A stretch of 39,646 bases of DNA from Chloroflexota bacterium (lineage in GTDB: Bacteria; Chloroflexota; Limnocylindria; P2-11E), in NCBI GenBank assembly GCA_005879975.1, contig VBIL01000075.1:1-39646 (forward strand), given 5' to 3'. Both the position numbers and the translations under genes were made by a program. The notes under the pieces were generated by a model. That model saw nothing but the letters and a program-made list of their open reading frames with translations. It had not been told where the DNA came from and ran no database searches. Shown piece by piece: positions 21,113 through 38,591 of the stretch (position 1 is its first letter; each line of letters begins with the position of its first letter).

Positions 21113-22261
21113 GTGGACTTCGACATCCCTGAGGAGCTGCAGCTGGTCGCGCGCACCGTGCGCGACTTCGTTGAAACGCGCCTCCAGCCACTCGAGAAGC
21201 AGGTCGAAGAGACCGACAAGATCCCGGATGGCGTCCTGAAGGAGATGGCCGAGCTCGGCTTTTTTGGGCTGCCATTCCCCGAGGAGTACGGCGGCGCAGG
21301 CGCGGGCGATCTCGGCTATTGCCTCGCGCTCGAGCAGTTCGGACGCACGTCGGCCGCATTCTCGAACGTCATTGGCGCGCATACCTCGATCGGCTCGATG
21401 TCGATCTTCCTCGGCGGTACCGAGGAGCAGAAGCACAGATATCTGCCGGATCTCACGGCCGGGAAGAAGATCGCCGCGTTTTCGCTTACCGAACCGTCCA
21501 GCGGGTCCGACGCGGCATCCATCCAGACCACCGCGATTTGGCGAGACGGCTGTTGGATCCTGAACGGGACGAAGATCTGGGTCACGAACGGACCGATCGC
21601 CGATGTGGTCGTCGTGTACGCGTCGACGGACCGCGCAAAGGGGGCGCGCGGTGGCATCACCGGGTTCATCGTCGAGAAGGGCTTCAAGGGTTTCCGCGTC
21701 GGCAAGGTCGACGACAAGATGGGGCTGCGCGGCTCGTACACGGGCGAGCTCGTATTCGAAGATTGCGAGGTGCCCGATGCGAACGTCCTCGGCGGACAGG
21801 TCGGCGCGGGGTTCCGCACGGCGCTCGGCGCGCTCGACATCGGACGCATCTCGCTCGCGGCCGGCGCGGTCGGATCGAGCCAGCACCTCCTCGAGCTCGC
21901 GATCGCGCACAGCAAGCGCCGCCAGCAGTTTGGCAAGCCGATCGCCGCGAACCAGGCGATCCAATGGATGCTCGCGGATAGCGCGGTCGAGATCCACGCG
22001 GCGCGGCTTATGGTGTACGACGCGGCGTGGAAGATGGATCAGGGAAAGCGCGCCCCGCTCGAAGCTGCGATGGTGAAGGTCTACGCCTCCGAGATGGCCA
22101 ACCGCGTCGCCGACCGGGTCCTCCAGATTCACGGAGGCATGGGCTACATGAAGGATTCGCCGGTCGAGCGCGCGTACCGCGACGCGCGGATCTTGCGCAT
22201 CTATGAGGGCACGAGCGAAGTGCAAAGGATGATCATCGCGGAAGAGTTACTAGAGTCATGA
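21113..22261 (+). CDS. acyl-CoA dehydrogenase
   Basis: [76 protein letters not shown]. Confidence 0.95.
22218..22246 (+). repeat. 29-bp direct repeat, left copy (3' end of acyl-CoA dehydrogenase CDS)
   Basis: AAGTGCAAAGGATGATCATCGCGGAAGAG, identical to 22346..22374. Confidence 0.97.
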
Positions 22262-22345
22262 AGAGTCGAGCGACGAGCGGTTCACCCGCGAGGAGCGAGT
22301 CCACCAGCCTTGAGCGCGTCTCTGGGCGCAGCCCAGAGATTGAGC
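22258..22345 (+). repeat. Dispersed repeat element, copy C
   Basis: ATGAAGAGTCGAGCGACGAGCGGTTCACCCGCGAGGAGCGAGTCCACCAGCCTTGAGCGCGTCTCTGGGCGCAGCCCAGAGATTGAGC; homologous to the minus-strand copies at 36978..37175. Confidence 0.88.
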
Positions 22346-22374
22346 AAGTGCAAAGGATGATCATCGCGGAAGAG
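22346..22374 (+). repeat. 29-bp direct repeat, right copy
   Basis: Identical to 22218..22246; followed by CTCCTCAAGGCGTAG, an alternative acyl-CoA dehydrogenase C terminus (LLKA*). Confidence 0.97.
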
Positions 22375-22402
22375 CTCCTCAAGGCGTAGGCGGAGGGACG
22401 GG

Positions 22403-24139
22403 ATGGCGAGCAAGATCAAGGTCGAGGTCAAAGACACAGCGCCGCTGACGGAGCGTCCGTGGACGCGCCACTACGACCCGGGCGTGCCCGCGACGCTCAT
22501 CTATCCCAAGGTCCCGTTGCAGGCCATGCTCGACGACGCTGCCGAGAGCAACCCGAACGCGACGGCGACGATCTTCTTCAATCGCAAGCGGACCTACAAG
22601 AGCATCTCCGATGCGGCATGGCGTTTCGCGAACGGACTCCGTCGTCTCGGCGTAAAGAAGGGCGACCGCGTGGGGCTCGTCCTCCCGAACACGCCCCAGT
22701 TCGTCATCGCGTTCTATGGAGCTCTCCGCGCGGGCGCGACCGTTGTCCCCTGTAACCCGCGATACACCGCGCCCGAGATGCAGCATCAGCTCGCCGATTC
22801 CGGGGCGACCGTGGTCGTCGTGCTCTCACGTCTTTATCCACTGGTCAAGGCCGCGCGCGCTGGTACCTCCGTCGAGCATGTGATCGTCACGAACATCAAG
22901 GAAGAGATGCCGCCGCTCCTGCGAATGCTCTTCACGCTCGCGAAGGAGAAGAAGGACGGGCACCGCCAGCCGTTCGCCGGCGATCCAGGGGCGGTCGCGT
23001 TCCGGGACGTCCTCGCCGCTTCGGCGGATCCCTTCGACGTCGGCACGCGAACCGATGACCTGGCGCTCCTCCAGTACACCGGCGGCACGACGGGCATCTC
23101 GAAGGGCGCGATGCTCTCGCATCGCGCGCTCGTCGCGAACACGCTTCAGTGCCGCTCCTGGTTCACCAATCTCCGCGACGGGCAGTCAACGGCGATGGCG
23201 GTCATGCCGTTCTTCCACGTCTACGGGCTCACCGTGGTCATGAGCCTCGCGGTCCAGTGCGCGGCGGCGATGGTCCTCGAGCCGCAGCTCGACCTCGAGC
23301 ATCTATTGAAGGACGTCCAGCGTCATCGCCCGCAGATGTTCTGCGGCGCGCCGATCATCTACAACGCGATCAACAACTCGCCACTCGCCAAGAAGTACGA
23401 CCTCCGGTCGATCGAAGCGTGCATCTCGGGCTCCGCGCCCCTGCTCATCGACACGCATCGGAAGTTCGTTGAGCTCACCGGCGCGAAGCTCGTGGAGGGA
23501 TACGGCCTCACCGAGGCCGCGCCGGTCACGCACAGCAATCCGCTCTTCGGCGAGGGCAAGCAGAAGGTCGGGACCATCGGCGTGCCGTTCCCGGACGTCG
23601 AGTCCAAGGTGGTCGATCTCGAGACCGGGGAACGCGAGATGCCGGCGGGCGAATCCGGCGAGCTGATCGTCCGCGGTCCGCAGCTCATGGACGGCTACTA
23701 CAGGCGGCCCGACGAGACGGCCCTCACGCTGCGGAACGGCTGGCTGTACACCGGCGACATCGCGACCGTCGATGAGGAAGGCTACGTTGCGATAGTCGAT
23801 CGCAAGAAAGAGATGATCATCGTCTCCGGCTTCAACGTGTACCCGCGCGAGGTCGAGGAGGCCCTGGTAACGCATCCTGCGGTGCTCGACGCAGCCGCGA
23901 TCGGCGTACCGCATCCGATCAAGGGCGAAGAGGTCAAGGCCTTTGTGGTCCTCAAGCCTGGCGCGACTGTGACTGCCGATGAGCTGCGCGCCCACTCCGC
24001 CGAGCGTCTCGCGTCGTTCAAGCGGCCCCACGAGATCGAGTTCCGCCAGTCGCTCCCCAAGACGCTTATCGGAAAGACGCTGCGGAAGGAGCTCGCCGCG
24101 GAGGAAAGGGCCAAGCGCGAGATAACTGTCCCGGCGTGA
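22403..24139 (+). CDS. long-chain fatty-acid-CoA ligase
   Basis: LLQYTGGTTGISKGAMLSHRALVAN, GYGLTEAAPVTHSNP, YTGDIATVDEEGYVAIVDRKKEMIIVSGFNVYPREVEE; GGAGGGACGGG upstream of ATG. Confidence 0.95.
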   Translation: MASKIKVEVKDTAPLTERPWTRHYDPGVPATLIYPKVPLQAMLDDAAESNPNATATIFFNRKRTYKSISDAAWRFANGLRRLGVKKGDRVGLVLPNTPQFVIAFYGALRAGATVVPCNPRYTAPEMQHQLADSGATVVVVLSRLYPLVKAARAGTSVEHVIVTNIKEEMPPLLRMLFTLAKEKKDGHRQPFAGDPGAVAFRDVLAASADPFDVGTRTDDLALLQYTGGTTGISKGAMLSHRALVANTLQCRSWFTNLRDGQSTAMAVMPFFHVYGLTVVMSLAVQCAAAMVLEPQLDLEHLLKDVQRHRPQMFCGAPIIYNAINNSPLAKKYDLRSIEACISGSAPLLIDTHRKFVELTGAKLVEGYGLTEAAPVTHSNPLFGEGKQKVGTIGVPFPDVESKVVDLETGEREMPAGESGELIVRGPQLMDGYYRRPDETALTLRNGWLYTGDIATVDEEGYVAIVDRKKEMIIVSGFNVYPREVEEALVTHPAVLDAAAIGVPHPIKGEEVKAFVVLKPGATVTADELRAHSAERLASFKRPHEIEFRQSLPKTLIGKTLRKELAAEERAKREITVPA

Positions 24140-24158
24140 GCTTCGGAGCGCTGGGTTC

Positions 24159-24326
24159 CTAGCGCCTGGCTGCGCTCGCGGTGATGACGAAGTAGTCGTT
24201 CACGATGCCGTCGAGGGTGTTGAAGACGACCCGCACGACCACGTTCACCGGCTCGATCGCCGATACCGCCTGCATCTGCGGGTGAAGGAGCTTCGCGCTC
24301 CAGATCGCCGGGTATCCGCTGTACAT
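24159..24326 (-). CDS. small hypothetical protein
   Basis: MYSGYPAIWSAKLLHPQMQAVSAIEPVNVVVRVVFNTLDGIVNDYFVITASAARR; no recognised family; start uncertain. Confidence 0.35.
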   Translation of the reverse strand: MYSGYPAIWSAKLLHPQMQAVSAIEPVNVVVRVVFNTLDGIVNDYFVITASAARR

Positions 24327-24434
24327 GGCGACAAGATCGCATCGCGAGATGCGTGCCACATCAGCCGCGGGAGTGATGATCTCTCCCGATCGCGTACTCC
24401 CCCGATGAAGTCCTACCTCTCCTGGGGGGTCCAC

Positions 24435-24450
24435 GGGGGCAAGAGCCCCC
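24435..24450. other. GC hairpin GGGGGC-AAGA-GCCCCC upstream of the SUMF1-like gene
   Basis: Perfect 6-bp stem with 4-nt loop; a competing GGGGGG (24424-24429)/CCCCCC (24446-24451) pairing is also possible. Confidence 0.55.
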
Positions 24451-24470
24451 CGGCTCGCTACCGTAAGCGC

Positions 24471-24944
24471 GTGGTCGAGCCCGATGTCGTCGTCGTACCT
24501 GCCGGCGACGCGCTCCTCGGCGATCCGCCCCGCACCGAGCACGTAAATGTTTTTGCCATTGCCCGCCGCCCGGTCACGGTGGGCGAGTACTCGGCGTTCC
24601 TCGAGGCGACGGGGCACCCCGCGCCTGTCAATTGGAGTACACAACGCGCCCGCACGGACGGCGCGATCGAGAACGTCTCGTGGGCCGACGCCGTCGCCTA
24701 TTGCCGCTGGCTCACGATCGGGAGCGGCCGGATCTACCGCCTACCCGACGAACGGGAGTGGGAGAAGGCCGCCCGGAACGAAACCACGCTGAGCGGCCTC
24801 GGCGCCCTTCGGGAGTGGACGAACAGCTGGCAGGGCGGCGGTCGTGTGGTCCGTCGGGGCGACGATCTCGCGGAACGGGCGTTCGCCGGCACGGACCTGC
24901 GGGGGATCGGCTTCCGGATCGTCCGCGGCATGACCGGTCGGTAG
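24471..24944 (+). CDS. SUMF1/formylglycine-generating-enzyme-like (EgtB/Pvd-type) domain protein
   Basis: FAIARRPVTVGEYSAFLEATGHPAPVNW, ENVSWADAVAYCRWLT, YRLPDEREWEKAAR, LREWTNSW, GFRIVRG; GTG start chosen, ATG 24405 possible. Confidence 0.75.
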   Translation: MVEPDVVVVPAGDALLGDPPRTEHVNVFAIARRPVTVGEYSAFLEATGHPAPVNWSTQRARTDGAIENVSWADAVAYCRWLTIGSGRIYRLPDEREWEKAARNETTLSGLGALREWTNSWQGGGRVVRRGDDLAERAFAGTDLRGIGFRIVRGMTGR

Positions 24945-25903
24945 TGCCGTCCATCATCGTTGCGAGCGGCAACGGGGCCTCCGCACTACCTGCCGGTATC
25001 CGCATCCTGGCTCGCGGCGGATCGGCACTCGACGCGGTCGAGGCCTGCGCGAAGATCATCGAAGCCGATCCGAGCGACACGAGCGTCGGCCGCGGCGGCA
25101 AACCGAACGTCCTCGGCGTGGTCGAGCTCGACGCCTCGATCATGGACGGCACCACACACCGGACAGGCGCGGTCGCGGCGCTCGCGGGGTTCCTCCATCC
25201 GATCTCCGTCGCTCGCGCGGTAATGGACCGGACGCCGCACGTATTCCTCGTCGGCGAGGGGGCCAGCCGGTTCGCTCGCGAGATCGGCGCCACGCGCACT
25301 CAGAACCTCACCCCTTCGACCCGCAAGCTGTGGGTCGAGCGCCTGCGCAAAGCGGGCGAGACGCCCTCCAGCGTGCGCCGCCGCGCGAAGCTCCTCCCGG
25401 TCGTCCGGAAGACTGTGAAGGAGGAACGGGGGACCGTGAACTTTCTCGCGGTCGACCGGCACGGGGATGTCGCCTCCGCGGTGACCACGAGCGGGTGGGC
25501 GTATAAGTACCCCGGGCGCGTGGGCGACTCGCCGATCATCGGCGCCGGCAACTACTCCGACTCGCGTTACGGCGCGGCCGCGTGCACGGGCTACGGCGAG
25601 CTCGCGATCCGCAGCGTCACGGCGAAGACCGCCGTCGATCGGCTCGCGTCGGGGATGCCCATCGACGTGGCGGCGCGGGCAGCGATCGAGGATGCGAACG
25701 CGCTCGAGGATGCCGCGTTCAACATCGTCGTGCTGAGCGCGGACGGCGCCCACGCCTCGGCCACGAATCGCCAAGGCCGCCGCTACGTGTGGATGACCGC
25801 GACGATGAGTGAGCCGGCTACCGCGCTTCGAGCTTGGGTGCCGCAAGCGCGGCGAGGATCTCGATCGTCTCGGGCCACCGTTCGAGCAGGGTCGCTTCGC
25901 TGA
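24944..25903 (+). CDS. isoaspartyl peptidase/L-asparaginase (Ntn-hydrolase, glycosylasparaginase-like)
   Basis: GGSALDAVEACAKIIEADPSDTSVGRGGKPN, ERGTVNFLAVDRHGDVASAVTTSGWAYKYPGRVGDSPIIGAGNY; GTG start overlapping the upstream TAG. Confidence 0.88.
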   Translation: MPSIIVASGNGASALPAGIRILARGGSALDAVEACAKIIEADPSDTSVGRGGKPNVLGVVELDASIMDGTTHRTGAVAALAGFLHPISVARAVMDRTPHVFLVGEGASRFAREIGATRTQNLTPSTRKLWVERLRKAGETPSSVRRRAKLLPVVRKTVKEERGTVNFLAVDRHGDVASAVTTSGWAYKYPGRVGDSPIIGAGNYSDSRYGAAACTGYGELAIRSVTAKTAVDRLASGMPIDVAARAAIEDANALEDAAFNIVVLSADGAHASATNRQGRRYVWMTATMSEPATALRAWVPQARRGSRSSRATVRAGSLR

Positions 25904-26243
25904 GGCCGCACCAGCGGTAGCGATCGTGTTCCTCGTTCAGCGTCGGCTCCCACTCCGGCGGAACCTCGACGGAGAAGTTGCCGATCGTGACCTCCACTAC
26001 GCCCGGACCGTACTCGTGGCGGAGCATCTCCGGCACCGCGTAGCTCTGCGGCATGGCGAGATCCGCGACCGCGGCGTGCAGCCCGGTCTCTTCCAAGAGC
26101 TCGCGCGCCGCCGCCTCTGCGAAGGTCTCGTCCGCCTCGACCACGCCCGCGACGACGTGCCAGTAGTCGTCGGGAACGCGATGGAGCATCAGGAACAGTT
26201 CGCCGCGTCGGACGATGATCGCGGCCTCGCGCTCGGTCCTCAT
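25818..26243 (-). CDS. NUDIX hydrolase
   Basis: GVVEADETFAEAAARELLEETGL Nudix box; start MRTEREAAIIVRRGELFLML. Confidence 0.9.
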   Translation of the reverse strand: MRTEREAAIIVRRGELFLMLHRVPDDYWHVVAGVVEADETFAEAAARELLEETGLHAAVADLAMPQSYAVPEMLRHEYGPGVVEVTIGNFSVEVPPEWEPTLNEEHDRYRWCGLSEATLLERWPETIEILAALAAPKLEAR

Positions 26244-26245
26244 CC

Positions 26246-28777
26246 CTAGAGCGCCGCCACCGCCGCCTGCAGCTTCGCGGTCGCGTCGTTCGCGTTGGTC
26301 CCTGCCGGGAAATAGATCGGATCGCCGAATACGACCTCGACGTCGCCGCGCCAACCGTTCGCCCGGTCGCGGCCCCACTTCTTATCCAGGTGATCGAGGA
26401 TGGAGACGCGGTTGATCTTGAGCTTCATCGGGACGACCGGGCTGGCGCCCTCGACGGCGATGAGTCCGGCGCCGGACTTGAAAGGCTGCGTGGGACCGCC
26501 GATGGTGAGCTTGCCCTCGGGATAGATGAGCACCGAGAACTGCCGATCGAGCCGCGCCCCGAGCAGTTCGAGACTCCGGCGGATCGCGCCCTCCCTTGCG
26601 AGCGGAAAGGCGTTGGCGAGGATCGCGCTGAACGCGCCGTTGAGCTTGTTGCCGAAGACATCGTCAGCCGCCGCCGCGACGGCCAGGCGCCACCGCCAGG
26701 TGAGGGGGATGGCCATGATGATGATGCCGTTGTCCCAGTGCAGGCAGTGGTTCGGTGTGAAGAGCACCGGACCATCGAGCCCGCGAAGCTTCTCGAGGCC
26801 GGTGACCTTCACGTGATAGAAGAGGTGCACCAGCGGGTAGAGCAGCGTCTCCTGGAGAAGGATCCCGAAGCTGCGCACCAGCGGGTGAAGCGGCCAGCCG
26901 AAGATCCCGGTCTCCTTCTTGGTGTCGCGCGCAGCGGCCACCATTTGTTCGAGGTCACCGACGGTCGCGTTCGGCAGGACGGCGGCGTCGTCGATATACG
27001 TGCCGGTCTCCTCCTCGATGACCCCGAGGAGGTCGACCCGCCCGAGTGAGTCGAGCCCGATGTCCTGTGAGAGCTGTGCGTCGCCGTGGATGCGCTCGGC
27101 AGGTACGTTCGCGACCTGCATCACGATCCGCTCGACCTCGCTGAGCTCGCGCGCCGATCCTGTCGCCGCCACGGGCTCGGGCTCGCCGCGTCCGATGGCC
27201 CCAAGACGCTCGACGATCTCGCGCTTCTTGACCTTCTGCGTCGGTGTCGTCGGGAATTCCGCGTCCGGCCAGATCGTCCAGCCGCGGATCTGCTGGCTGC
27301 TCGAGAGCTTCGCGTTGGCGTCGCGGACGATCTGATCGACGGTGGCGCGGTCCTTTGGCTCGAGGAACACGGCGTGGACCTGCAGCGTCTCCCCGGGGCG
27401 CTCGAGACCGACGACCGTGGCGAGCACCGGCCGCTGCGGCGTGGCGATCTCCTGGAGCCGCGGGTCGGCCGCGAGGATGTTTTCGATGTCCTCGGGATAG
27501 ACCTTGAGGCCGTCGGGGAGCGCGATCATGTCCTTCTTGCGGCCGTGCAACCAGAGGAAGCCGTCCGCATCGAACTTGCCGAGGTCGCCGGTGTGGAACC
27601 AACCGTCCTTGTCGATCGCCGCGCGGGTAGCTTCCTCGTTCTCCCAATACCCCTTGAAGATGTTCGGTCCGTGCGCGATGACTTCGCCCTCGTCGGTGAT
27701 CTTCACCAGGACGCCGGGCAACGGAACGCCGACCGAGCCGAGGCGGTTGCGGTCGAGGCGGTTGAACGTGAGCGCGGGCGACGTCTCGGTGAGTCCGTAG
27801 CCCTGCAGCACGTCCACACCGAGCTCGCGCCAGGCTTCACCCAACGCGGGATCCAGCGCCGCGCCCCCGGACACGATGTAGCGGAAACGGCCCCCGAACT
27901 GACTGTGCACGCTGAAGAACAGCAGTCGGCGAAGCGGCATGGGTAAACGCCGGGCGATCCGGCGAAGTCGCGCGAAGAGCTCGGTCTTGCCCTCTTGTTG
28001 CGCGCGCCGCTCGATCGCGATGAAGAGCGAGCGCACCGCCGCGGGCGTGATGAGGATCATCGACACCTTGCGCTCGCGGAATGTTCGGCGCACCACCGAT
28101 GGCTGACGGCTCGTCGGATACACAACCGATGCGCCCGCGAGCATGAGGCACCAGAACCCAGCCATCTGCTCGAACATGTGCGAGAGCGGGATGAAGGACA
28201 AGAGGCGCTGCTGTGGACCGATGGGGAAGATCTGCGTCGCGGCGATCGAGTTCGTGAGGATGTTGCGATGCGTGAGCATCGAGCCCTTCGGGTCGCCGGT
28301 GGTGCCCGAGGTGAACACCACCTCCGCGAGGTCGTCAGCACCGACGTCCGCTTTCGGCAGAGGCTCCAAAAGGCGCGCGCGGTCTGGGAGCTGCTCCATG
28401 TCGAACAGCGTCAGACCGAGCCCTTCCGCGCGTGGCCGCGTCTGCTGCGAGACGACGGCGGAGCTCGCGCGAGTGAACGTCGCGATCTTTTTGACGAACT
28501 CGGCGGTCGAGTTCACGTCGAGAGGCACGAGCACCGCGCCGACGCGGAGTGCCGCGAGCATCGCCATGCCGTACTCGGGCCGGTTCACCCCGAACGTGAT
28601 GACACGGTCGCCCTTGCGGACGCCGGACTCGCTCAGGTATCGAGCGATCCGCGGAACAATGTCCTCGAGGTCGCGGTAAGTCCAGGTCCGCGTGCGGAAA
28701 CCCGGCTTGATGATGAAAGCGTCCTTGCGGCCGAACTTCGCGGCGGACACCTCGAGGATGTCGTTGAGCGTCTCCAC
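26246..28777 (-). CDS. fused AMP-dependent acyl-CoA/ACP synthetase - acyl carrier protein - lysophospholipid acyltransferase
   Basis: AMP-binding motifs VVFTSGTTGDPKGSMLTHRN and GYGLTETSPAL, HTGDLGKFDADGFLWLHGRKKDMI; ACP motif DIGLDSLGRVDLLGVIEEE; PlsC motifs FTPNHCLHWDNG and LIYPEGKLT. Confidence 0.92.
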   Translation of the reverse strand: METLNDILEVSAAKFGRKDAFIIKPGFRTRTWTYRDLEDIVPRIARYLSESGVRKGDRVITFGVNRPEYGMAMLAALRVGAVLVPLDVNSTAEFVKKIATFTRASSAVVSQQTRPRAEGLGLTLFDMEQLPDRARLLEPLPKADVGADDLAEVVFTSGTTGDPKGSMLTHRNILTNSIAATQIFPIGPQQRLLSFIPLSHMFEQMAGFWCLMLAGASVVYPTSRQPSVVRRTFRERKVSMILITPAAVRSLFIAIERRAQQEGKTELFARLRRIARRLPMPLRRLLFFSVHSQFGGRFRYIVSGGAALDPALGEAWRELGVDVLQGYGLTETSPALTFNRLDRNRLGSVGVPLPGVLVKITDEGEVIAHGPNIFKGYWENEEATRAAIDKDGWFHTGDLGKFDADGFLWLHGRKKDMIALPDGLKVYPEDIENILAADPRLQEIATPQRPVLATVVGLERPGETLQVHAVFLEPKDRATVDQIVRDANAKLSSSQQIRGWTIWPDAEFPTTPTQKVKKREIVERLGAIGRGEPEPVAATGSARELSEVERIVMQVANVPAERIHGDAQLSQDIGLDSLGRVDLLGVIEEETGTYIDDAAVLPNATVGDLEQMVAAARDTKKETGIFGWPLHPLVRSFGILLQETLLYPLVHLFYHVKVTGLEKLRGLDGPVLFTPNHCLHWDNGIIIMAIPLTWRWRLAVAAAADDVFGNKLNGAFSAILANAFPLAREGAIRRSLELLGARLDRQFSVLIYPEGKLTIGGPTQPFKSGAGLIAVEGASPVVPMKLKINRVSILDHLDKKWGRDRANGWRGDVEVVFGDPIYFPAGTNANDATAKLQAAVAAL

Positions 28778-28788
28778 CCTTTTCCCCC

Positions 28789-29448
28789 TCAGCTCCCCAG
28801 CGCGCGCAACGTCTCTCGGGCGCGTTCCCGGTACGGCGCGTAGTGCGAGAACAGGATGGTCTCCACGTCAAGGTCCGCGAGCCTGGCGATCGATTTGCGG
28901 GCCTGGGGCATGTCGTCGGTGAAGAAATAGTTCGGGAGCGTGACCTTTCCCTTCACCCGCTGCAAAAGGTCGCCGACGATCACAAATCTCCTCTCGGCGG
29001 AGTACAGGCAGATGCTCCCCGGGGTGTGCCCGGGGGTGTGAACGACGCGCAAGCCGCCGAACACGGGCAGCTCTTCACCATCCGCGACCGGTGTCGCGTT
29101 GGCGGGCGCGCGCGTCAGCAGCGCCACGATCGGACCGGGTGAGAAGTTCGCGATCACTTCTCGGAAGCGGATCCGCAGGCGCTCGCTGTCCGCCGGGTGC
29201 ATAAAGACGCTCGCGCCGGACAGCGCCGCGATCTCGTGGACGCCGCCGATGTGGTCGGGATGCCCATGCGTGCACACGATCCGCGTGATGTGCTCCATCG
29301 AGCGGCCGATCCGGGCGAGGTAGCCGCGCAGCATGCGGCTTGATCCTGCGTGCCCGGCGTCGACGAGCGTGATCTGGTCGCGGTCGACGAGCAGGTAGGC
29401 CTGGGCGCCGATGAGCTTGATCGCATGGACGTTGGGTAGCACTTCCAC
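28789..29448 (-). CDS. MBL-fold metallo-hydrolase
   Basis: RIVCTHGHPDHIGGVHEIA, HTPGHTPGSICLY, VGDLL; GTG start MEVLPNVHAIKLIGAQAYLL. Confidence 0.92.
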   Translation of the reverse strand: MEVLPNVHAIKLIGAQAYLLVDRDQITLVDAGHAGSSRMLRGYLARIGRSMEHITRIVCTHGHPDHIGGVHEIAALSGASVFMHPADSERLRIRFREVIANFSPGPIVALLTRAPANATPVADGEELPVFGGLRVVHTPGHTPGSICLYSAERRFVIVGDLLQRVKGKVTLPNYFFTDDMPQARKSIARLADLDVETILFSHYAPYRERARETLRALGS

Positions 29449-29504
29449 TGGAGCGAATGCTAGGTCGCTTGTTTCCCCGGGAGCGTCGGCTATCGGACGG
29501 TCAT

Positions 29505-30245
29505 TTATGCCAAAAAGGTCCGCCAAAGCAGGTTCCCCACGCTCGCGACCAGGAGGACGACGATGACCTGCCGGAAGCGGACCTGGTCGAGCCGGCCGCG
29601 AATGGCGATCCCGGCCATGAGCGCGAGCAGCATCGGGATGCAGGCGACGACGCCGAGCGTGAAGAGGTCCGGCGTGAACAGTCCGAGCGCCGTGTAGGAG
29701 ACGAGCTGCACGATCGACGAGAGCTGGAAGACGGAAGCGAGCGTGATCACGTACTCCTTCGGCGGCAAGCGCAGTGCGTGGAAAAACGAACCGATCACCG
29801 GGCTCGAGATCGATGTCGTTCCCTGCATGACGCCGCCCACGAACCCGACGACCGGCGTGAGCACCCGCGCGCGCCGTGCACCGGGGTCGCCCACGAGACG
29901 GTCGCCGCGGGCGAGGAACAGCACGACCATCGCCGTGATGAGGATCGCGAACGTCCGCTGATCGAGGCCGACCAGGAGCAGCGCGCCTAAAGCGGTGCCC
30001 GCGGCGTTCGCGATGACGAGCGGGAGAAGTGTCCGAAGGTAGCCCAACACCCGCCATGACTGCAGCAGGAGAAGCGTGTTCGCCACGAAGATCGGGATCG
30101 TGATGATGACGACCGCCTGTTTCGGGCCGAAGACCGAGGCGAGGATCGGCGTCGCGATGAGCGGAAGTCCCATGGCCGTCGCGCCTTTGGCAAGTCCGGC
30201 GACCGAGAGGCCGACGACGAGCGTCAGGAGCTGGAGTGCGCCCAA
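29505..30245 (-). CDS. TSUP (TauE/SafE) family sulfite exporter-like permease
   Basis: Eight-helix-like hydrophobic pattern; VAGLAKGATAMGLPLIATPIL, FVGGVMQGTTSISSPVIGSFF. Confidence 0.85.
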   Translation of the reverse strand: MGALQLLTLVVGLSVAGLAKGATAMGLPLIATPILASVFGPKQAVVIITIPIFVANTLLLLQSWRVLGYLRTLLPLVIANAAGTALGALLLVGLDQRTFAILITAMVVLFLARGDRLVGDPGARRARVLTPVVGFVGGVMQGTTSISSPVIGSFFHALRLPPKEYVITLASVFQLSSIVQLVSYTALGLFTPDLFTLGVVACIPMLLALMAGIAIRGRLDQVRFRQVIVVLLVASVGNLLWRTFLA

Positions 30246-31462
30246 TCCTTCTCGCTCACGAGGGACCTCCAGTCCACCTGGTGCAGCCGCTCGCTCTCGA
30301 TGTACGTGCGGCCGGTCTTCGCCAGTGGACGGCCTTCCACGCGAACGATGTCGGCGGTGTGATCGAAACCTGAGCCGTGTACGAGAGCGGAGCCGACCCC
30401 ATAGACGTCGACAGGAACGCGAAGGTCCTCGAAGCGGCGGATCTTTGGAGCGTCGAAGCCGCCCGACGCGACGATGCGCACATGACGGTATCCGTTGCGG
30501 TCGAGCGCTTCACGCAGTAGCTCCACCAGTCGCGGCGTGACGCCGCGAAGCTCGCCGACCGCAACGCCTTCCTTCTTCTCGAGCTCGCGCAGGATCGCGC
30601 GGTCCACGAGCGACTCGCTCGTGTCGACGCGCACTCCCCACAGGCGGGCCCCCAGAGCGTGCGCGACACCGAGAGACGTGTTCACGACATCGTTCTGGAA
30701 GTCGACGAGGCTGCCGCCGTAGACGGCGATGAGCGCGTGCGGGACGGTCCCGAGCCCCGTGGAGCCCCACCACTCGCCCTGCTCGTCGGTCGAGACGGCG
30801 GTGGCGCCGCCGACATATGCCGCGTATCCCGATCCGGCCTGCGCCTCGTGCACCTGGTGCCGCGCGCCGAACATGATCACCGGCTTGCCGTTCGCCGCGG
30901 AGACCACGTCGCGAGTGTTCGTCGCGACGCGCGTCCCTTCCGAGAGCGCGCCGAGGTACAGGGTCTCGAGATGCGCAAACGCCGCGTACTCGCCCTCGAT
31001 GTGCATGACCGGCTCGTATGGTGCCGCGGTCTCGCCGTCGTACAGCGAGGCGACCGAAAGCTCGCGCCAACCCGGCTCCCAGAGGCCGGCGAGCTCGCGC
31101 GAGATGTCGAAGACCTCACGCGCGATCGGGGCGTACGCGGTCCAGTCGAGCGCGGGTAGCTCGAGCCACGCCGCATAGAGCCGGCGCTCCGCCGCGAGAT
31201 AGCGTTCGAACAGAGCCTCGGACTTCGCGCGATCTCGGTACCGGCCGGCGCCCACATGGAGCATCGCGAGCGTCAAGTCCGTTCCGACGACCACCGCATC
31301 CGGCCGTTTTTGGAAGACCTGCATCGTGACGCGATCGCGCCGCCCGTCCCGCTCGAGGATGAGCTTCGTCCGCGCGAAATAGATGTCGCTCTTGTAGCCC
31401 GCGCGGATCTTCTCGATCGGAAGGCGGAAGACGCGCGGCCGAAGGCGATCGGTGAGGATCAC
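30224..31462 (-). CDS. nicotinate phosphoribosyltransferase
   Basis: AGYKSDIYFARTK, GTRVATNTRDVVSAANGKPVIMFGARHQVHE, VASGGFDAPKI, VDVYGVGSALV. Confidence 0.88.
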   Translation of the reverse strand: MILTDRLRPRVFRLPIEKIRAGYKSDIYFARTKLILERDGRRDRVTMQVFQKRPDAVVVGTDLTLAMLHVGAGRYRDRAKSEALFERYLAAERRLYAAWLELPALDWTAYAPIAREVFDISRELAGLWEPGWRELSVASLYDGETAAPYEPVMHIEGEYAAFAHLETLYLGALSEGTRVATNTRDVVSAANGKPVIMFGARHQVHEAQAGSGYAAYVGGATAVSTDEQGEWWGSTGLGTVPHALIAVYGGSLVDFQNDVVNTSLGVAHALGARLWGVRVDTSESLVDRAILRELEKKEGVAVGELRGVTPRLVELLREALDRNGYRHVRIVASGGFDAPKIRRFEDLRVPVDVYGVGSALVHGSGFDHTADIVRVEGRPLAKTGRTYIESERLHQVDWRSLVSEKDWAHSSS

Positions 31463-31890
31463 TCGCGCACCGTCGATCCGGGAAGGTCAGAGATGCCGGG
31501 TCCGGTCTGCGCGCGAAAGACCACATTCGCCTGAAGCGCATCGCGGATTCGCTCAACCTGAAGCGGTGCCGTATTCGGGGGAAGCGCGTTGATGGGGAAG
31601 TAGCCGACCTGATCGGCCTCATCGCTCGTCGCGGGGACGCCGCCGATGATTCTGCCCTCGAAGTTGAAGACCAGATCGCTTGACTTCGGCTTCCAGTAGA
31701 GGCCGGTCAACCGGATGACCTCGATGTCGACGCCGACCTCCTCCCGAGCCTCTCGCACAGCGGCATCCCACGGCGCCTCGTTGTCTTCCACCCCGCCACC
31801 AGGCAGGTTCCACACATCGAAGTCTCGGCGGTGGCAGAGAAGCACCTGCCGATCGCGATCGAAGATCACGGTAAAGGCGCCGACAATCAT
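31459..31890 (-). CDS. NUDIX hydrolase
   Basis: WNLPGGGVEDNEAPWDAAVREAREEVGVDIEV Nudix box; ATG at 31890 overlaps the SDR stop. Confidence 0.92.
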   Translation of the reverse strand: MIVGAFTVIFDRDRQVLLCHRRDFDVWNLPGGGVEDNEAPWDAAVREAREEVGVDIEVIRLTGLYWKPKSSDLVFNFEGRIIGGVPATSDEADQVGYFPINALPPNTAPLQVERIRDALQANVVFRAQTGPGISDLPGSTVRE

Positions 31891-32693
31891 CAGAACATGC
31901 TCATGAGCATGCCGCCGTCGACCTGAAGCGAGACGCCGGTGATGTACGAGGCCTTCGGCGACGCGATGAAGACGACCGCCGCGGCATATTCCTCGGGCTT
32001 GCCGTAGCGGCCCATGGGGATCACCGAGGACTCGTAGCGCTTGCGAACCTCGTCGGGACTCGTGCCCTGCCGTCGCGCCGTGTCGGTGTCGAGCTGGATG
32101 AGCCGATCGGTCGCGATGCGCCCGGGCTGGACCGCGTTCACCCGGATCCCATCTTTGGCAAGGTCGGACGACAGCGTCTTCAGCATTCCGTGCACCGACG
32201 CGCGTATGGCGTTCGACAGGATGAGGTTCAGGTACTGCGTCGGCTGGCGGACGCTCGTCGAGGTCGAGTAGACGATCGAACCGCTGCCCTGCTTGCGCAT
32301 CTGAGGAAGGACGAGCCGCGTGAGCCGCACCGCCGAGAAGAGCGTGAGGTCGACGGCCTTGTGCCACGCGGTGTCGTCGAGATCGTCGAATCGTCCGGGC
32401 GGCGGGCCGCCGGCGTTGACGATGAGGATGTCGATCGCTCCGAACGTGCTCTGCGCCAGCTGCACGAACGACTCGCAGCCCTCCTTTGTCGAAACGTCGG
32501 CGGCGATCGGGAGAAGGTCGGGATTGCCGGTCTTGCGCTCGATCTCCTGCGCCGCGGCGCTGATGGCGCCTTCCTCGCGGCTGCACATCGCGATCTTCGC
32601 TTTCTCCCGTGCGAACTCCTCGGCGATCGCGCGACCGAGACCCTTGCTCGCCGCCGCGACCAGGACGACTTTCCCGTTCAGGCCGAGATCCAC
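31890..32693 (-). CDS. SDR family oxidoreductase
   Basis: ASKGLGRAIAEEFARE, VNAGGPPPG, IRVNAVQPGRIATDR, ITGVSLQVDGGMLMS; GTG start. Confidence 0.92.
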   Translation of the reverse strand: MDLGLNGKVVLVAAASKGLGRAIAEEFAREKAKIAMCSREEGAISAAAQEIERKTGNPDLLPIAADVSTKEGCESFVQLAQSTFGAIDILIVNAGGPPPGRFDDLDDTAWHKAVDLTLFSAVRLTRLVLPQMRKQGSGSIVYSTSTSVRQPTQYLNLILSNAIRASVHGMLKTLSSDLAKDGIRVNAVQPGRIATDRLIQLDTDTARRQGTSPDEVRKRYESSVIPMGRYGKPEEYAAAVVFIASPKASYITGVSLQVDGGMLMSMF

Positions 32694-32714
32694 GGCGCTA
32701 TCGTGCCATGCGCG

Positions 32715-32921
32715 ATGCGCTGGCTTGGTCTGCTGCTCGTCGCCGCGGGCGTCGGCCAACTCATCGCCTTCTGCTTGATCTGGCCGCCGATCCTTCTCTA
32801 CGGCAACGACGTGGCTTCACCGAACGGGATCTTGGCGATCGGCGCGATCCTCGGCCTGGTGTTCGTCATCGCCGGGATCATGGTGATCTTCGGCGGCCGT
32901 GGTGGTCCCGACGTGGCCTAA
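32715..32921 (+). CDS. small two-helix membrane protein
   Basis: MRWLGLLLVAAGVGQLIAFCLIWPPILLYGNDVASPNGILAIGAILGLVFVIAGIMVIFGGRGGPDVA. Confidence 0.55.
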   Translation: MRWLGLLLVAAGVGQLIAFCLIWPPILLYGNDVASPNGILAIGAILGLVFVIAGIMVIFGGRGGPDVA

Positions 32922-33721
32922 GGGGCGAGCAAACCTGCCGCGATCGCAAGGACGATCACGGCCGCCAGCACCACCCGATAGGCGACGAACCAATTCAGCG
33001 AGTGGCCGCGGAGGAAGCGGACCATGAAGGCGACTGCGGCGATGCCGAAAAGGAACGATGTGACGAATCCGATGGCGAGCACGTCGGGCTCGGCAAAGAG
33101 CCCGGCGGCCTTGCGTGCGTCGAGCAGGGTCTTCGCGCCCGCTCCGAGGATCACGGGGGTTGCGAGGAGGAACGAGAACCGCGTCGCCTCTTCTCGATTG
33201 AGCTCGCGAACGAGGCCGGCAGAGATCGTGATGCCCGAGCGAGAGATGCCGGGGAGGAGCGCGATCGCCTGAGCGGCGCCCATGAACAATGCGTCGACGA
33301 CCGTCAGGTCGCCGATCGTTCGGCGCTGCCGCGCGACGGCCTCCGCGGCAACAAAGACGATCGATCCGATGACCAGACCGGCCGCGATGAAGACCGGACT
33401 GCGCAGCTCTCGCTCGACCGCGGACTGAAAGAGCACGCCGGCGATCGCCGCCGGTGCGGTGCCGAGCACGACGAGCGCGGGCATCCGCCAGCGGCCGCGG
33501 AACACATCGGCCACCAGGCCGATCCATGTGCGGGCGAAGTAGAGGAGCACGGCGAGGGCGGTGCCGAGGTGCAGGGCGACGTCGAAGCTGAGCCCGAAAC
33601 GTTCCGGATCGAGCTTGAGCACGTCGCTGGCGAGAATGAGATGCGCGGTCGAGCTCACCGGAAGGAATTCGGTGAGCCCCTGGATCACCCCGAGGATCGC
33701 CGCCGCCGCCGCGTCGTTCAT
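32918..33721 (-). CDS. uppP: undecaprenyl-diphosphatase (BacA/UppP)
   Basis: ILGVIQGLTEFLPVSSTAHLIL, LLPGISRSGITISAGL motifs. Confidence 0.95.
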   Translation of the reverse strand: MNDAAAAAILGVIQGLTEFLPVSSTAHLILASDVLKLDPERFGLSFDVALHLGTALAVLLYFARTWIGLVADVFRGRWRMPALVVLGTAPAAIAGVLFQSAVERELRSPVFIAAGLVIGSIVFVAAEAVARQRRTIGDLTVVDALFMGAAQAIALLPGISRSGITISAGLVRELNREEATRFSFLLATPVILGAGAKTLLDARKAAGLFAEPDVLAIGFVTSFLFGIAAVAFMVRFLRGHSLNWFVAYRVVLAAVIVLAIAAGLLAP

Positions 33722-34670
33722 CGCATCGAGCGCCGGGCGGCCGCGAGCGCCTCCCGCGCCTCGCGGTCGTTCTCGCGCACCGCGTCGAGGTTCTTGGCCC
33801 ACGCACGCCGGTGACCCACGTCGAGAAAGCGCATCGCGACTCCTCCGTCGAATTCGCCGACCCCGCCCTTGGCTGCCGACTCCGCGGCGTAGCCATACGA
33901 CTCCGCGGCGCGTAGCAGATCGCCGCCCGGCGCGTTCGCGAACATGCCGCGCGCGCCGCGAAGAAATCGCGCCGCCGCGCGACGCTTGTCGACCAGGACG
34001 GCGCGCATCGCATGATCGGCAAACGCCGCGGTCCCGGCGTGCTTTGCGTCGCTCCATCGCGCATCCTCACGGAGCGCGCCGGACCATGAGGCCAGCGCCC
34101 GATCGCTCGCGTCGCCGGCCGTGAGCCCCGCATCGATACCTTCGCGCACGGCATTCGCCCGGTCCGGCGCCGCGCCTTTGTCGAGAAAGACGAGCCCGCC
34201 ACGATCCTCACTCTCGAACGCGTCCCACCCGACGCGGCGCGGGTCGTCGCCTTTGTCAAAGAACGTGCGCGCGAAAAAGGTCGGTCCCTCTTGATCGAAG
34301 CCCACGACGAGGCCGTACTCGGGCGTGCCGCCGAGACCGAACACGAGGGGCGGCAGCTGCGCATCGACTGCCTCCATCACGCGATCCAGGATGAGCTCGC
34401 GCATCTCCTCGTCGTACGGTGGCGGTTCGGGATCGAGGCGCACACCCGCCGCGCGCGCCGCGCGACGGAGCGTGTCGGAATCGCGCGGTGTCGCGGCAAG
34501 CGGGTCCCACCCCGTCTCGTCGATCGTCGCGGTGAACGCGGCGGCCGAGGAGCCCATGAGCCAGTCGTAATCGGTCTTCGTCGCGGCGGCGAGCGCCGCG
34601 GGGAACGTACAGTCGTGCCCTTCACCGAACCGGAGCGGCGCGATCTCTTTAAGGATGCGGCGTTTGGTCA
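33718..34670 (-). CDS. conserved hypothetical protein; N-terminal segment faintly reminiscent of BtrH-N/cysteine-peptidase-like proteins
   Basis: FGEGHDCTFPAALAAATKTDYDWLMGSSAAAFTATID...; conserved-looking internal Cys/Gly motif; no canonical start close to the upstream stop, so the 5' end is approximate. Confidence 0.55.
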
Positions 34671-35615
34671 GGCGCCGTTCTCGGGGAAGGCGTGCTTCAG
34701 GAGCGTGCAGACCTGGAGCGTCACCCACTTGCTCGCGTCGACCTTCGATGGCATGCGGGCGACGTACGGTGCTCTTCCGGCCCAGCGGCCACGCGGGTCC
34801 TGGCGCGAAAGGAGCCACGCGATCGCCGGCTGAACTCGGTCGTCATCGATCGCGCCGGCGGCATCGAGGGCGCGGAGGACGAAGAGGACGTCGGCTTGGT
34901 AAAAGAGCGGGAACGAGAGCTGGCGCCAGAGATAGCTGGGCTCTGTGTCCGTCGGGTACTTCCCACGCTCGACCCGATAGGACAGGAGGAACTCCACGCC
35001 GCGCCGGATCGTCCGAGCGACCTCGCGCGTGCGTGCGCCCTCGGGAAGCGCCGCGAGCCCCCAGATGAGTCGGGCATAGCCCCACGCGCAGGGTTGGTCG
35101 CCATTGATCCAGCACGCGGCGTCGAATTTCTTCGAGTCCTGCACGAGCCGCTCGACGAGGGGCTCGACTCGCGGATCGTTGCCGTAGCCTGCGATCGAGA
35201 CATAGCGCACCAGGTTGCCGATGACGCATGACGCGCCGTGATCTCTGTTGAACACCCAGCGCATCCCACCCATGTCGGGTTGGCCGAGCTCGTCGAGAAC
35301 GTAACGCGCGGCCCGCTTCACGCGGGTATCCGACGCATCGACCCCGTACTCGATCAGAAGCAGATTCGACCAGAGCGTGCCCTCGTACTTCGGGCCGTAC
35401 ATATTCGCGCCAGGCCATCCGCCGCTCGGACGCTGACGCCCCAGGATCGTGGAGATCGGCGGCGTACCCATCGCCCGCTGCTGCGCTTCGCGCACTTCAG
35501 GATCGCGGGGCCCTCGGTCGAGCAGGGATCGCAGCGCCAGCGACCGGACCGCCGGATCGCGCCGCTCGAGAAGCCACGGGACCGGGTCACCCTTCAACAG
35601 GGACCGCCAGGACAC
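34668..35615 (-). CDS. prenyltransferase/squalene-cyclase-like alpha-alpha barrel protein
   Basis: Repeated Gly/Trp helical pairs: RQRPSGGWPGANMYGPKYEGTLWSNLLLIEYGV, WLLSRQDPRGRWAGR; VCTLLKHAF. Confidence 0.72.
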   Translation of the reverse strand: MSWRSLLKGDPVPWLLERRDPAVRSLALRSLLDRGPRDPEVREAQQRAMGTPPISTILGRQRPSGGWPGANMYGPKYEGTLWSNLLLIEYGVDASDTRVKRAARYVLDELGQPDMGGMRWVFNRDHGASCVIGNLVRYVSIAGYGNDPRVEPLVERLVQDSKKFDAACWINGDQPCAWGYARLIWGLAALPEGARTREVARTIRRGVEFLLSYRVERGKYPTDTEPSYLWRQLSFPLFYQADVLFVLRALDAAGAIDDDRVQPAIAWLLSRQDPRGRWAGRAPYVARMPSKVDASKWVTLQVCTLLKHAFPENGA

Positions 35616-36977
35616 CTAGGCCCCTCCGATAGACAACTCTGAGATGACGAGCGTGGGACTGCCTAGGCCGCCCGGCCCAAATACCAGATCGTTCCCGACG
35701 CCGACCACCGCACCAAGCAGATGAGTGAGGTTGCCGGCGATCGTGATGCCCTCCGCCGGATGCACGCGTCCCCCGCGCTCGAGATAGTTCCCGGTCGCGC
35801 CGAGCGAGAACTCGCCCGACACGGGATCGATCGTGTGCAGATTCAGCAGTGACGTCACGGCAAGCGCGTGGTCCAGCCCGCGAACGATCCCCTCGGCGTC
35901 GTCGGAACCGGCGGCAACAAAGAGATTCGACGGCCCGATGCGGGCCGGCGAGCCGTAGCCGCCGCGTCGCGCATTGCCGCTGGGGTCGATGTGCAGCTTG
36001 CTCGCCGTCTTCAGTGATGTGAGATACCCGCGGAGGGAACCGCGGTCGATCAACGTTCGCGTTGTGGTCGCGACGCCTTCGCCGTCGAACGGTGCGCTCC
36101 GAAGGCCGCGCGGCTTCCGCGCATCGTCCACGATCGTGATCTTCTCGTTTGCGACGCGCTGCCCCACCTTTCCCGCGAAGAGACTTCGCCCTTTGAGCAC
36201 GTTGTCGGCCGAGAACAGCGGGCCGATCGCGCGCAAGAGATCCATCGCCATCCACGGATCCAGGACGACCGGGAGCTTCTGCGTCGCCAGAGGACGGGAG
36301 CCGAGCTTCTCGACGGCGCGCTGCGCGGCGCGCTGTCCGACGCGCACCGGGTCGAGCTCGGCGAATCGGCGAGCGGCCTCGCCGTGATAGCCGACCTGCC
36401 GTTCGCCACCAGGAGAGGTCTCCGTCGCCACCGCCGAGGTCATGACGCCGCAGTACGACTCGCGGTACGAGGCGCGGACGCCGGTCGTCGTCGCGATGAT
36501 CGTGGTCGACTCCGAGTCGCTGTACGTCGTCTTGCGAAACTGCCTGATGCGCGGATCGACCGCGCGCGCGGCCTCTTCGACAGTCAGCGCGACGGCACCC
36601 CGCTCAGCCAGCGGCCGGTCGACCACGCCGGCCTGGTAGATGTCCAGATCGGCGTCGTCGATCGCTTTCTTCGCAAGAGCGAGATCGGGATCGGCCTCGG
36701 TGACGCCCGACATCCGGCGCGCCGTGTCGGCGCAGGTTCGGATGCCGTCCGCGCTGAGGTCGCTCGTGTAGGCGAAGCCGAGGCGCTGCTCGTCGAGGAC
36801 GCGGATGCCGACGCCGCGCTCGCCGCGCGCGATGGCGCTTTCGATCGCGCCCTCCTTGATCTCCACGGATCCCGACTGCGCCTCGCGGAGGAAGACCTCC
36901 CCGGTCGCGACGCCTAGCGAGCGCAGCGCATCCAGCGCCGTGTCGACCGTAGCCTCGTTCGTGAGCCGCTCGCTCAT
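35616..36977 (-). CDS. pmbA: TldD/PmbA family protein (PmbA/TldE-like subunit)
   Basis: GVGIRVLDEQRLGFAYTSDLSADGI, VVLDPWMAMDLLRAIGPLFSADNVLKGRS, GSPTLVISELSIGGA. Confidence 0.92.
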   Translation of the reverse strand: MSERLTNEATVDTALDALRSLGVATGEVFLREAQSGSVEIKEGAIESAIARGERGVGIRVLDEQRLGFAYTSDLSADGIRTCADTARRMSGVTEADPDLALAKKAIDDADLDIYQAGVVDRPLAERGAVALTVEEAARAVDPRIRQFRKTTYSDSESTTIIATTTGVRASYRESYCGVMTSAVATETSPGGERQVGYHGEAARRFAELDPVRVGQRAAQRAVEKLGSRPLATQKLPVVLDPWMAMDLLRAIGPLFSADNVLKGRSLFAGKVGQRVANEKITIVDDARKPRGLRSAPFDGEGVATTTRTLIDRGSLRGYLTSLKTASKLHIDPSGNARRGGYGSPARIGPSNLFVAAGSDDAEGIVRGLDHALAVTSLLNLHTIDPVSGEFSLGATGNYLERGGRVHPAEGITIAGNLTHLLGAVVGVGNDLVFGPGGLGSPTLVISELSIGGA

Positions 36978-37063
36978 TTCAGCTCAATCTCTGCCTTCGG
37001 CAGAGACACGCTCAAGACTGGCGGTCTCGCTCCTCGCGGATAAACCGCTCGTCGCTCGCTCAT
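36974..37063 (-). other. 29-codon mini-ORF (copy A of repeat), ATGA-coupled to mini-ORF B and to pmbA
   Basis: MSERRAVYPRGARPPVLSVSLPKAEIELK*; stop TGA overlaps pmbA ATG. Confidence 0.5.
36978..37060 (-). repeat. Dispersed repeat element, copy A
   Basis: Plus strand TTTCAGCTCAATCTCTGCCTTCGGCAGAGACACGCTCAAGACTGGCGGTCTCGCTCCTCGCGGATAAACCGCTCGTCGCTCGCT; tandem with copy B. Confidence 0.92.
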
Positions 37064-37179
37064 CTCAGCTCAATCTCTGCCTTCGGCAGAGACACGCTCA
37101 AGACTGGTGGTCTCGCTCCTCGCCGGCAGGGGTAGGGGCCCCTGGGCGCGGAGCGACCCGCTCGTCGCTCGCACTTCAT
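37060..37179 (-). other. 39-codon mini-ORF (copy B of repeat), ATGA-coupled to tldD stop and mini-ORF A
   Basis: MKCERRAGRSAPRGPYPCRRGARPPVLSVSLPKAEIELR*; start overlaps the tldD stop. Confidence 0.5.
37061..37175 (-). repeat. Dispersed repeat element, copy B, with extra palindromic insert
   Basis: Same core as copy A, but the apex region is replaced by a longer segment containing CAGGGGTAGGGGCCCCTG (37127-37144). Confidence 0.9.
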
Positions 37180-38591
37180 TTCAGTTTCCCGCCCACCACG
37201 ACCGAGGGGATGCGGATCGTTGGCTGGGCGTCGGCGACCGGCGCTCCCTGCCCGTCCTTGCCGCATGTCCCGGTGGAGTAACCGAGATCGCTCCCGACCA
37301 TGTCGATCTCGCTCATGAGCTTCGGGCCCTGGCCGACGAGCGTTGCTCCGCGGAGCGGCTCCGCGAGCTTTCCGTCGCGGATGCGGTAGCACTCGGTTAT
37401 CTCGAAGGCGAAATTGCCCGAGACCACGTCGACCTGCCCACCGCCCATCTTCTTCACGAACACGCCGTCCTTGACGGAACGCAGGATCTCCGCCGGTTCC
37501 GACGTCCCGCGCGCGATCATCGTGTTCGTCATCCGGCAGATCGGGAGATAGCGGAAGGACTCGCGTCGCCCGTTGCCACTCCTCGGGATGCCGAGCTTCT
37601 CGGCATGCTTCCGATCCGAGAGGTAGGTCCGAAGGATGCCGTTTTCGATAAGAACCGTGCGGTTCGTCGGTGTGCCCTCGTCGTCGATCGCCGACGTGCC
37701 GCGCCTGTCGGGATCGGTCCCGTCGTCGATCACCGTGATGAGCTCGCTCGCGACCTTCTGCCCGATGCGACCCGAGTAGACCGAGAGTCCTTTCAGGTTG
37801 AGGTCGGCTTCGAGACCATGACCGACCGACTCGTGAATGAGCGTGCCCCCCGCCTCACTCGACAGAACGACCGTATACGTGCCCGCCGGCGCCGGGTCAG
37901 CGCCGACGTTGAGCACCGCACGACGAGTCGCGTCGGTCGCCGCCTGCTCGACCGCCTGATCGGTCAGCATCTCGAATCCCGCGGTGCCGCGGAGCGCCTC
38001 GAAGCCGGATTCGAGCACCTCCCCCTGCTTCGCTACAACGTGCACGGCGAGGTTGAGACGCACCCGGGTGTCGGTCCGCAGCAGGCCATCGCTGTTCGCG
38101 ATCAGGATCTCCTGAACGCTCTCGCCGTAGCTGGCGGTCACCTGCTGGACCCGCGGATCGAGGCCGCGCGCTACCTCGTTTGCCCGGCGCAGAAGGCCCA
38201 GCTTCCGCTCGACGGCGACCGAGCGCGGGTCGATGGCGACGGTCGAGTGACGCGGAACCGAGTCCGGTTCGGGCGGAGTGGCTTCGTGGAGCTCGCCGCC
38301 GTCGGCGACGCTGCGCGCGGCGCGCCCTGCCAGTGCGATCAGGTCGTCGACATCCGCAACGTTCCCGTTCGCATAGGTCGTGCGCTCGCCGCTGGTCACG
38401 CGGATGCCCGCACCTTGATCCACGCCGCTGATCGCATCCTCGATGCGTCCGTCATCGAGGACGAGCTGCAGCGTCTCGTGCCGTTCCCAGTAGAGCTCCG
38501 CCCAGTCCCCGCCCCGCGAGAGCGCGGTGCGGAGCGTCTGTGCCGCCTCGCGCGCGCTGATCGACGGATCTTTTGTCAGTGTGGTGGTGAT
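37176..38591 (-). CDS. tldD: TldD family metalloprotease
   Basis: GGTLIHESVGHGLEADL (HExxxH zinc motif), IDDEGTPTNRTVLIENGILRTYLSDRKHAEKLG. Proposed start ATC 38591 (non-canonical); first canonical in-frame start is GTG 38423. Confidence 0.88.
   Translation of the reverse strand: MTTTLTKDPSISAREAAQTLRTALSRGGDWAELYWERHETLQLVLDDGRIEDAISGVDQGAGIRVTSGERTTYANGNVADVDDLIALAGRAARSVADGGELHEATPPEPDSVPRHSTVAIDPRSVAVERKLGLLRRANEVARGLDPRVQQVTASYGESVQEILIANSDGLLRTDTRVRLNLAVHVVAKQGEVLESGFEALRGTAGFEMLTDQAVEQAATDATRRAVLNVGADPAPAGTYTVVLSSEAGGTLIHESVGHGLEADLNLKGLSVYSGRIGQKVASELITVIDDGTDPDRRGTSAIDDEGTPTNRTVLIENGILRTYLSDRKHAEKLGIPRSGNGRRESFRYLPICRMTNTMIARGTSEPAEILRSVKDGVFVKKMGGGQVDVVSGNFAFEITECYRIRDGKLAEPLRGATLVGQGPKLMSEIDMVGSDLGYSTGTCGKDGQGAPVADAQPTIRIPSVVVGGKLK

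Follow-up and report, generated by a model that had tools for sequence, protein, structure and literature searches.

The window, the whole stretch of DNA analysed here (positions 1-39646 of 54,880 on contig C88, in a 2.66 Mb assembly that is 83% complete), carries a two-hairpin repeat at two gene junctions. One copy (A) lies between genes for an acyl-CoA dehydrogenase and an AMP-binding enzyme; on the opposite strand, a tandem pair (C, then B) lies between genes for a TldD-like and a TldE-like protein. The features, in order of position, are as follows.

21113..22261, + strand: acyl-CoA dehydrogenase, the gene upstream of copy A
22218..22257, + strand: left flanking direct repeat of copy A, the last acyl-CoA dehydrogenase codons, ahead of the stop TGA at 22259-22261
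22260-22345, + strand: covariance model match to copy A (E 5e-22, 106.7 bits)
22267..22345, + strand: core of copy A, 79 nt (model match)
22267..22299, + strand: hairpin 1 of copy A, CGAGCGACGAGCGG-TTCAC-CCGCGAGGAGCGAG, with 8 Watson-Crick pairs and three tandem G.A/A.G steps
22300..22318, + strand: linker of copy A, TCCACCAGCCTTGAGCGCG, which forms a short GC/GC mini-hairpin; other copies have 4 bp here
22319..22339, + strand: hairpin 2 of copy A, TCTCTGGGC-GCA-GCCCAGAGA, then TTGAGC at 22340-22345
22346..22385, + strand: right flanking direct repeat of copy A, then the presumed original gene end ...GCGTAG
22403..24139, + strand: AMP-binding enzyme, the gene downstream of copy A
35616..36977, - strand: PmbA/TldE-like protein, the gene downstream of copies C and B
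36974..36982, - strand: right direct repeat of copies C and B, CTGAAATGA, whose last letters include the TldE start ATG at 36977-36975
36982-37065, - strand: covariance model match to copy B (E 2e-18)
36982..37058, - strand: copy B, tandem to copy C
37068-37178, - strand: covariance model match to copy C (E 6e-14)
37068..37171, - strand: copy C, after the TldD stop TGA at 37178-37176; the apex of its hairpin 1 holds a second palindromic module
37126..37157, - strand: nested module GTCGCTCCGCGCCCAGGGGCCCCTACCCCTGC in hairpin 1 of copy C, replacing the 5-nt loop
37176..37184, - strand: left direct repeat of copies C and B, CTGAAATGA, equal to the end of TldD
37176..38423, - strand: TldD-like PmbA/TldD protein, the gene upstream of copies C and B

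The earlier note on this DNA had counted three copies in the window, and a covariance model built from 20 copies matches all of them. It had also described two stems; both exist, but they were assigned to the wrong copies, since GGGC-GCA-GCCC is found in the copy at 22258 and GCC-GAA-GGC in both minus-strand copies. What had been taken for a variable region is the apex of hairpin 1, where GTCGCTCCGCGCCCAGGGGCCCCTACCCCTGC replaces the 5-nt loop in copy C, and if tandem G.A/A.G mismatches are tolerated, the flanking arms pair along 14 positions. A shortened extra copy lies on the same contig beyond the window (G000:C88:44583-44649). The genome has 11 copies of a small palindromic module, GTCGCTWCGCGCCCAGGGGCCCCTRCCCCTG, which recurs in element loops in either orientation; its sites include 37126-37157 (-) in the window and C8:9456, C31:7588, C110:30226, and C134:2976 of G000.

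Across the family, the core is ~80 nt long and consists of two hairpins in fixed order. Hairpin 1, with arms CGAGCGACGAGCGG-loop-CCGCGAGGAGCGAG or the alternative GAGCGAGGAG...GACGAGCGAG, follows the pattern C GA GC GA C GA GCGG - loop - CCGC GA G GA GC GA G. Its 14 pairs comprise eight Watson-Crick pairs plus three tandem G.A/A.G mismatches set between covarying pairs. Conservation is 98% at the six G.A/A.G positions and 86% at the Watson-Crick ones in this stem, where the pair at the base varies between C-G and T-A and the others among G-C/A-T, C-G/T-A, and further combinations. The single pair between two G.A steps is C-G or G-C in 78 and 64 of 157 copies, respectively. Loops are usually CTTTG, TTCAC, or TTCAT, with an almost invariant T in second place. 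The linker holds a small hairpin, GC-CNTGA-GC, extended to four pairs in other copies (e.g., CGCC-TGC-GGCG). Hairpin 2 has a perfect stem, capped in 74 of 111 copies by a C(GNA)G triloop, which forms an unusually stable DNA mini-hairpin, and the element ends 3' of it with TTGAGC. Folding energies are modestly below those of shuffled sequences (z about -1.4).

Further copies, which the earlier note had proposed to seek, are plentiful. The covariance model finds about 20 in the source genome (E<0.01) and 2-45 in every one of the 28 genomes of the source's GTDB family. In contrast, 33 genomes from other families of the class yield only 0-2 weak matches each (E>=4e-4). A phylum-wide sample of 251 genomes gives matches at E<=1e-5 in just six, all of the source's GTDB family, and none of the 245 sampled genomes outside the family reaches that threshold. 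The full element is also present on collection contigs that are Chloroflexi metagenome-assembled genomes (MAGs) from soil, groundwater, and lakes, and which probably belong to the CSP1-4 group of Limnocylindria. Another tandem pair, picked up by a strict pattern search, lies on contig C41; it runs antisense to both neighbours, and its 3' end meets the TAG of the gene for an ABC permease. Rfam gave no match at gathering threshold for the window and eight loci. Plasmid carriage has no supporting matches, and viral carriage has no support either, as the lone viral-contig match has only the loose seed pattern. This repeat family is real and new, REP-like, and restricted to one GTDB family.

Several copies are bounded by direct repeats. 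Among 147 non-tandem copies, 18 have junction repeats scoring >=8, versus 0.25 expected from mismatched flanks. The repeats are 6-42 nt long, mostly 8-12; examples are AAGGGTGG[C/A]TAG, AGGAGGCCAAA, CGGTCAGA, and GATGCCTAG, and at copy A the repeat spans 40 nt (22218-22251 matches 22346-22379 at 32/34 nt). Empty sites exist as well. The element is present at the acyl-CoA dehydrogenase junction of G000, G001, G003, G007, and G010; the junction is empty in G002, G005, G006, and G008. At the TldD/TldE junction, G000 and G004 carry the element and G001 and G007 have a tight junction; a different repeat occupies the site in six further species of the genus. Because direct repeats exceed chance and empty sites exist, the elements are insertions at gene junctions that left direct repeats behind. 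After insertion, the upstream gene still has its full end, and the start of the downstream gene is intact. Copies have been gained and lost between related species and duplicated in tandem.

In G004 the acyl-CoA dehydrogenase junction (L156) has no element and an apparent remnant, TCATGAAGATCGA; this looks like a deletion, and so like loss after insertion. The duplicated acyl-CoA dehydrogenase 3' codons (22218-22257 and 22346-22385; L056) are near-identical within a species and different between species, with 29 nt identical in G000, a pattern that suggests either gene conversion between both copies or independent insertions. At the TldD/TldE junction, loci L127, L128, L129, L131, and L133 carry an unrelated repeat of ~150-190 nt with CGGGTCCTGTCCCGGG, in both orientations. 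This junction is an insertion hot spot common to two unrelated repeats.

Orientation is strongly biased towards the direction of the upstream gene. Among 80 independent loci, those between co-directional genes are sense in 54 cases and antisense in 8 (p 2e-9); a further 7 have convergent neighbours and 7 have divergent ones, with some of the divergent cases possibly reflecting gene-caller errors. The earlier note had every copy beginning exactly at a stop codon. That is true of two of the three, where 5 nt (acyl-CoA dehydrogenase) and 4 nt (TldD) separate the TGA from the conserved core, but the copy at 36982 is a tandem repeat of its neighbour. More generally, the nearest upstream stop is at most 15 nt away in 50 of 61 loci. 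Of the gaps between co-directional genes in the source genome, 42% are zero or negative and 59% do not exceed 15 nt; 74% of elements would be expected within 15 nt of a stop if every junction had an equal chance, or 16% if chance followed gap length. Because gene junctions are so tight, stop proximity alone is weak evidence, and special targeting of stop codons need not be invoked. The proximity is a preference for, or tolerance at, tight junctions rather than stop-codon recognition. Exact placement at stops is thus largely expected from compact gene junctions, and has already been described for REPs (PMC3733652). Nor does the element always bring the stop codon: left-end stops vary (TGA at 35 loci, TAG at 8, TAA at 7), and TGA is already present at empty TldD/TldE sites. 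Copies starting TGAGCGA do supply a TGA stop.

The pairing itself is conserved, as the earlier note had claimed of its covarying hairpin. In 112 aligned copies, 96.9% of cells pair and all 17 modelled pairs show two-sided compensatory changes. Two-sided covariation amounts to 222 cells versus 64 in shuffles, and the signal is gone when the partner column is slid by 1-3. This alignment was fitted to the covariance model, so that its counts lean towards the model; regex and arm-based pair counts, which are independent of it, agree. At 59 orthologous junction pairs, defined by homologous flanks on either side, hairpin 1 has 55 two-sided changes, of which 50 exchange one Watson-Crick pair for another, together with 23 one-sided wobble changes and 39 one-sided breaks. 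About 16 two-sided changes would be expected under independence, given a per-site difference of about 0.18. These pairs share genomes and are not phylogenetically independent, and compensatory change could be mimicked if one copy took the place of another at a given site. Neither random placement nor stems devoid of compensatory change, which together were to have counted against the element, was found.

The two hairpins differ in what they say about the folding strand. In hairpin 1, wobble G.T outnumbers A.C by 39 to 10 (p 4e-5), and therefore the strand that folds is the sense strand; its G.A steps would read T.C on the opposite strand. Hairpin 2 shows no such asymmetry (G.T 5, A.C 6). Structure is conserved on the sense strand, and hairpin 1 is constrained either as sense-strand RNA or as the same strand in single-stranded DNA. 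A DNA role is possible for hairpin 2, since its triloop is stable as a DNA mini-hairpin. Indeed, recognition of single-stranded DNA during mobility could explain hairpin 2, because it lacks a G.T excess and its triloop type is best known from DNA.

The earlier note had likened the repeat to a REP/RPE-type element or a post-stop regulatory RNA. Many copies, insertion signatures, compensatory change, and sense bias fit that description, but the TnpA_REP-like Y1 transposase that it suggested is missing. PF01797 (IS200/IS605-type, including RAYT) is found in 0 of 61 genomes, with 5 of 14 control genomes positive, which leaves mobilisation by Y1/RAYT with no candidate enzyme there. The reverse transcriptase RVT_1 (PF00078) was found in a single one of the 28 family genomes and not in the other 27, which sets aside reverse-transcriptase mobilisation. 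Because of these absences across 28 genomes, albeit in incomplete assemblies, either enzyme is unlikely as the general mobiliser.

Known repeats offer partial parallels. REPs lie close to the 3' end of the gene upstream, and some provide its stop codon (PMC3733652). Like the GTAG REPs and REPINs of the Y1 RAYT system, the element is a short, multi-copy, non-autonomous intergenic hairpin repeat near upstream-gene 3' ends. Unlike them, it is ~80 nt long with two ordered hairpins, a G.A-mismatched stem, flanking direct repeats, and a strong sense bias, and it has neither a Y1 transposase in the 61 genomes nor a GTAG tag; just 13 of 163 copies have GTAG close to the hairpins, and it is not a family feature. 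With CGTC REPs (dRS3, RPE-4/RPE-6) it shares a location near gene 3' ends and no known dedicated transposase. A loose pattern places [C/T]GTC shortly ahead of hairpin 2 in about 112 of 163 copies. In CGTC REPs the stems are 8-9 bp long and start with AT pairs, the loops are 4-5 nt, and the tail is CCA (PMC3733652), whereas here hairpin 2 follows another hairpin, its stem starts TC/GA, its commonest loop is GNA, and the tail is TTGAGC. Bacterial MITEs (Correia, RUP, ERIC/RU) are likewise small non-autonomous insertions, and the excess of junction direct repeats corresponds to their target-site duplication. Here, in contrast, the direct repeats vary in length and no terminal inverted repeats were found: the ends hold none >=14 nt, and CGAGCG... 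and ...TTGAGC are not complementary.

We consider it somewhat probable that this is a lineage-restricted, non-coding, REP-like mobile repeat, non-autonomous and kept as structured RNA at operon junctions. An inserted element would be transcribed as a spacer within an operon mRNA, or as an mRNA 3' end, and the G.A-rich stem and perfect GNA hairpin would act as a structured RNA block. Its likeliest effect would be mRNA protection or segmentation, as proposed for REP/BIME elements; an added effect may be to uncouple translation of genes that once overlapped (ATGA at TldD/TldE). The mobilising enzyme would be something other than a detectable Y1 transposase. Both the RNA function and the mode of mobility are our inference.

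The strongest competitor, possible but unlikely, is a purely selfish REP/MITE-like DNA element whose hairpins are recognised as single-stranded DNA by a putative recombinase, with placement at gene ends reflecting survivors in a compact genome and no cellular role. Direct repeats, tandem copies, family restriction, and the C(GNA)G triloops all suit such an element, as does the equal-chance expectation for stop proximity. It accounts poorly for the 54:8 orientation, for compensatory change that keeps the structure at fixed sites, and for a family that has no Y1 transposase. More doubtful still is a strand-specific mobile RNA element with a stem of sheared G.A pairs bound by a putative protein; it would spread through operons, insert at stop/start junctions without breaking genes, and separate their expression, with a mobiliser unlike Y1 transposases or reverse transcriptases.

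Two further readings seem very improbable, and to the same degree. A retro-inserted, SINE-like RNA element, its transcript copied into DNA at a nicked junction, would yield direct repeats of variable length, sense-strand structure, and sense bias, yet RVT_1 is missing from nearly all family genomes. Alternatively, hairpin-templated repair (template switching) could perfect palindromes and produce covariation as a mutational artefact, with no selection involved. Hairpin 2 is a perfect palindrome whose G.T and A.C counts are symmetric, and such repair could have acted on it. For hairpin 1 it is already disfavoured, as it would erase the G.A mismatches, the most conserved positions of that stem, and would give G.T no preference over A.C. 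A reading as intrinsic terminators of transcription downstream of genes is scarcely credible: a hairpin does directly follow the stop codon, but hairpin 2 has no T run behind it (flank consensus A[G/A]G) and co-directional genes flank most copies.

REP-like repeats are common, and they raise the questions of whether the fold counts at the DNA or the RNA level and of how those lacking a RAYT are mobilised. The folded strand of the repeat family described here, which we favour as a mobile repeat kept as structured RNA, can be read from sequence alone, through G.A mismatches that are kept, an excess of G.T over A.C, and a sense bias. Moreover, empty, filled, and lost sites in close relatives make the insertion mechanism and the function of resident copies separately testable, in a lineage without a Y1 transposase.
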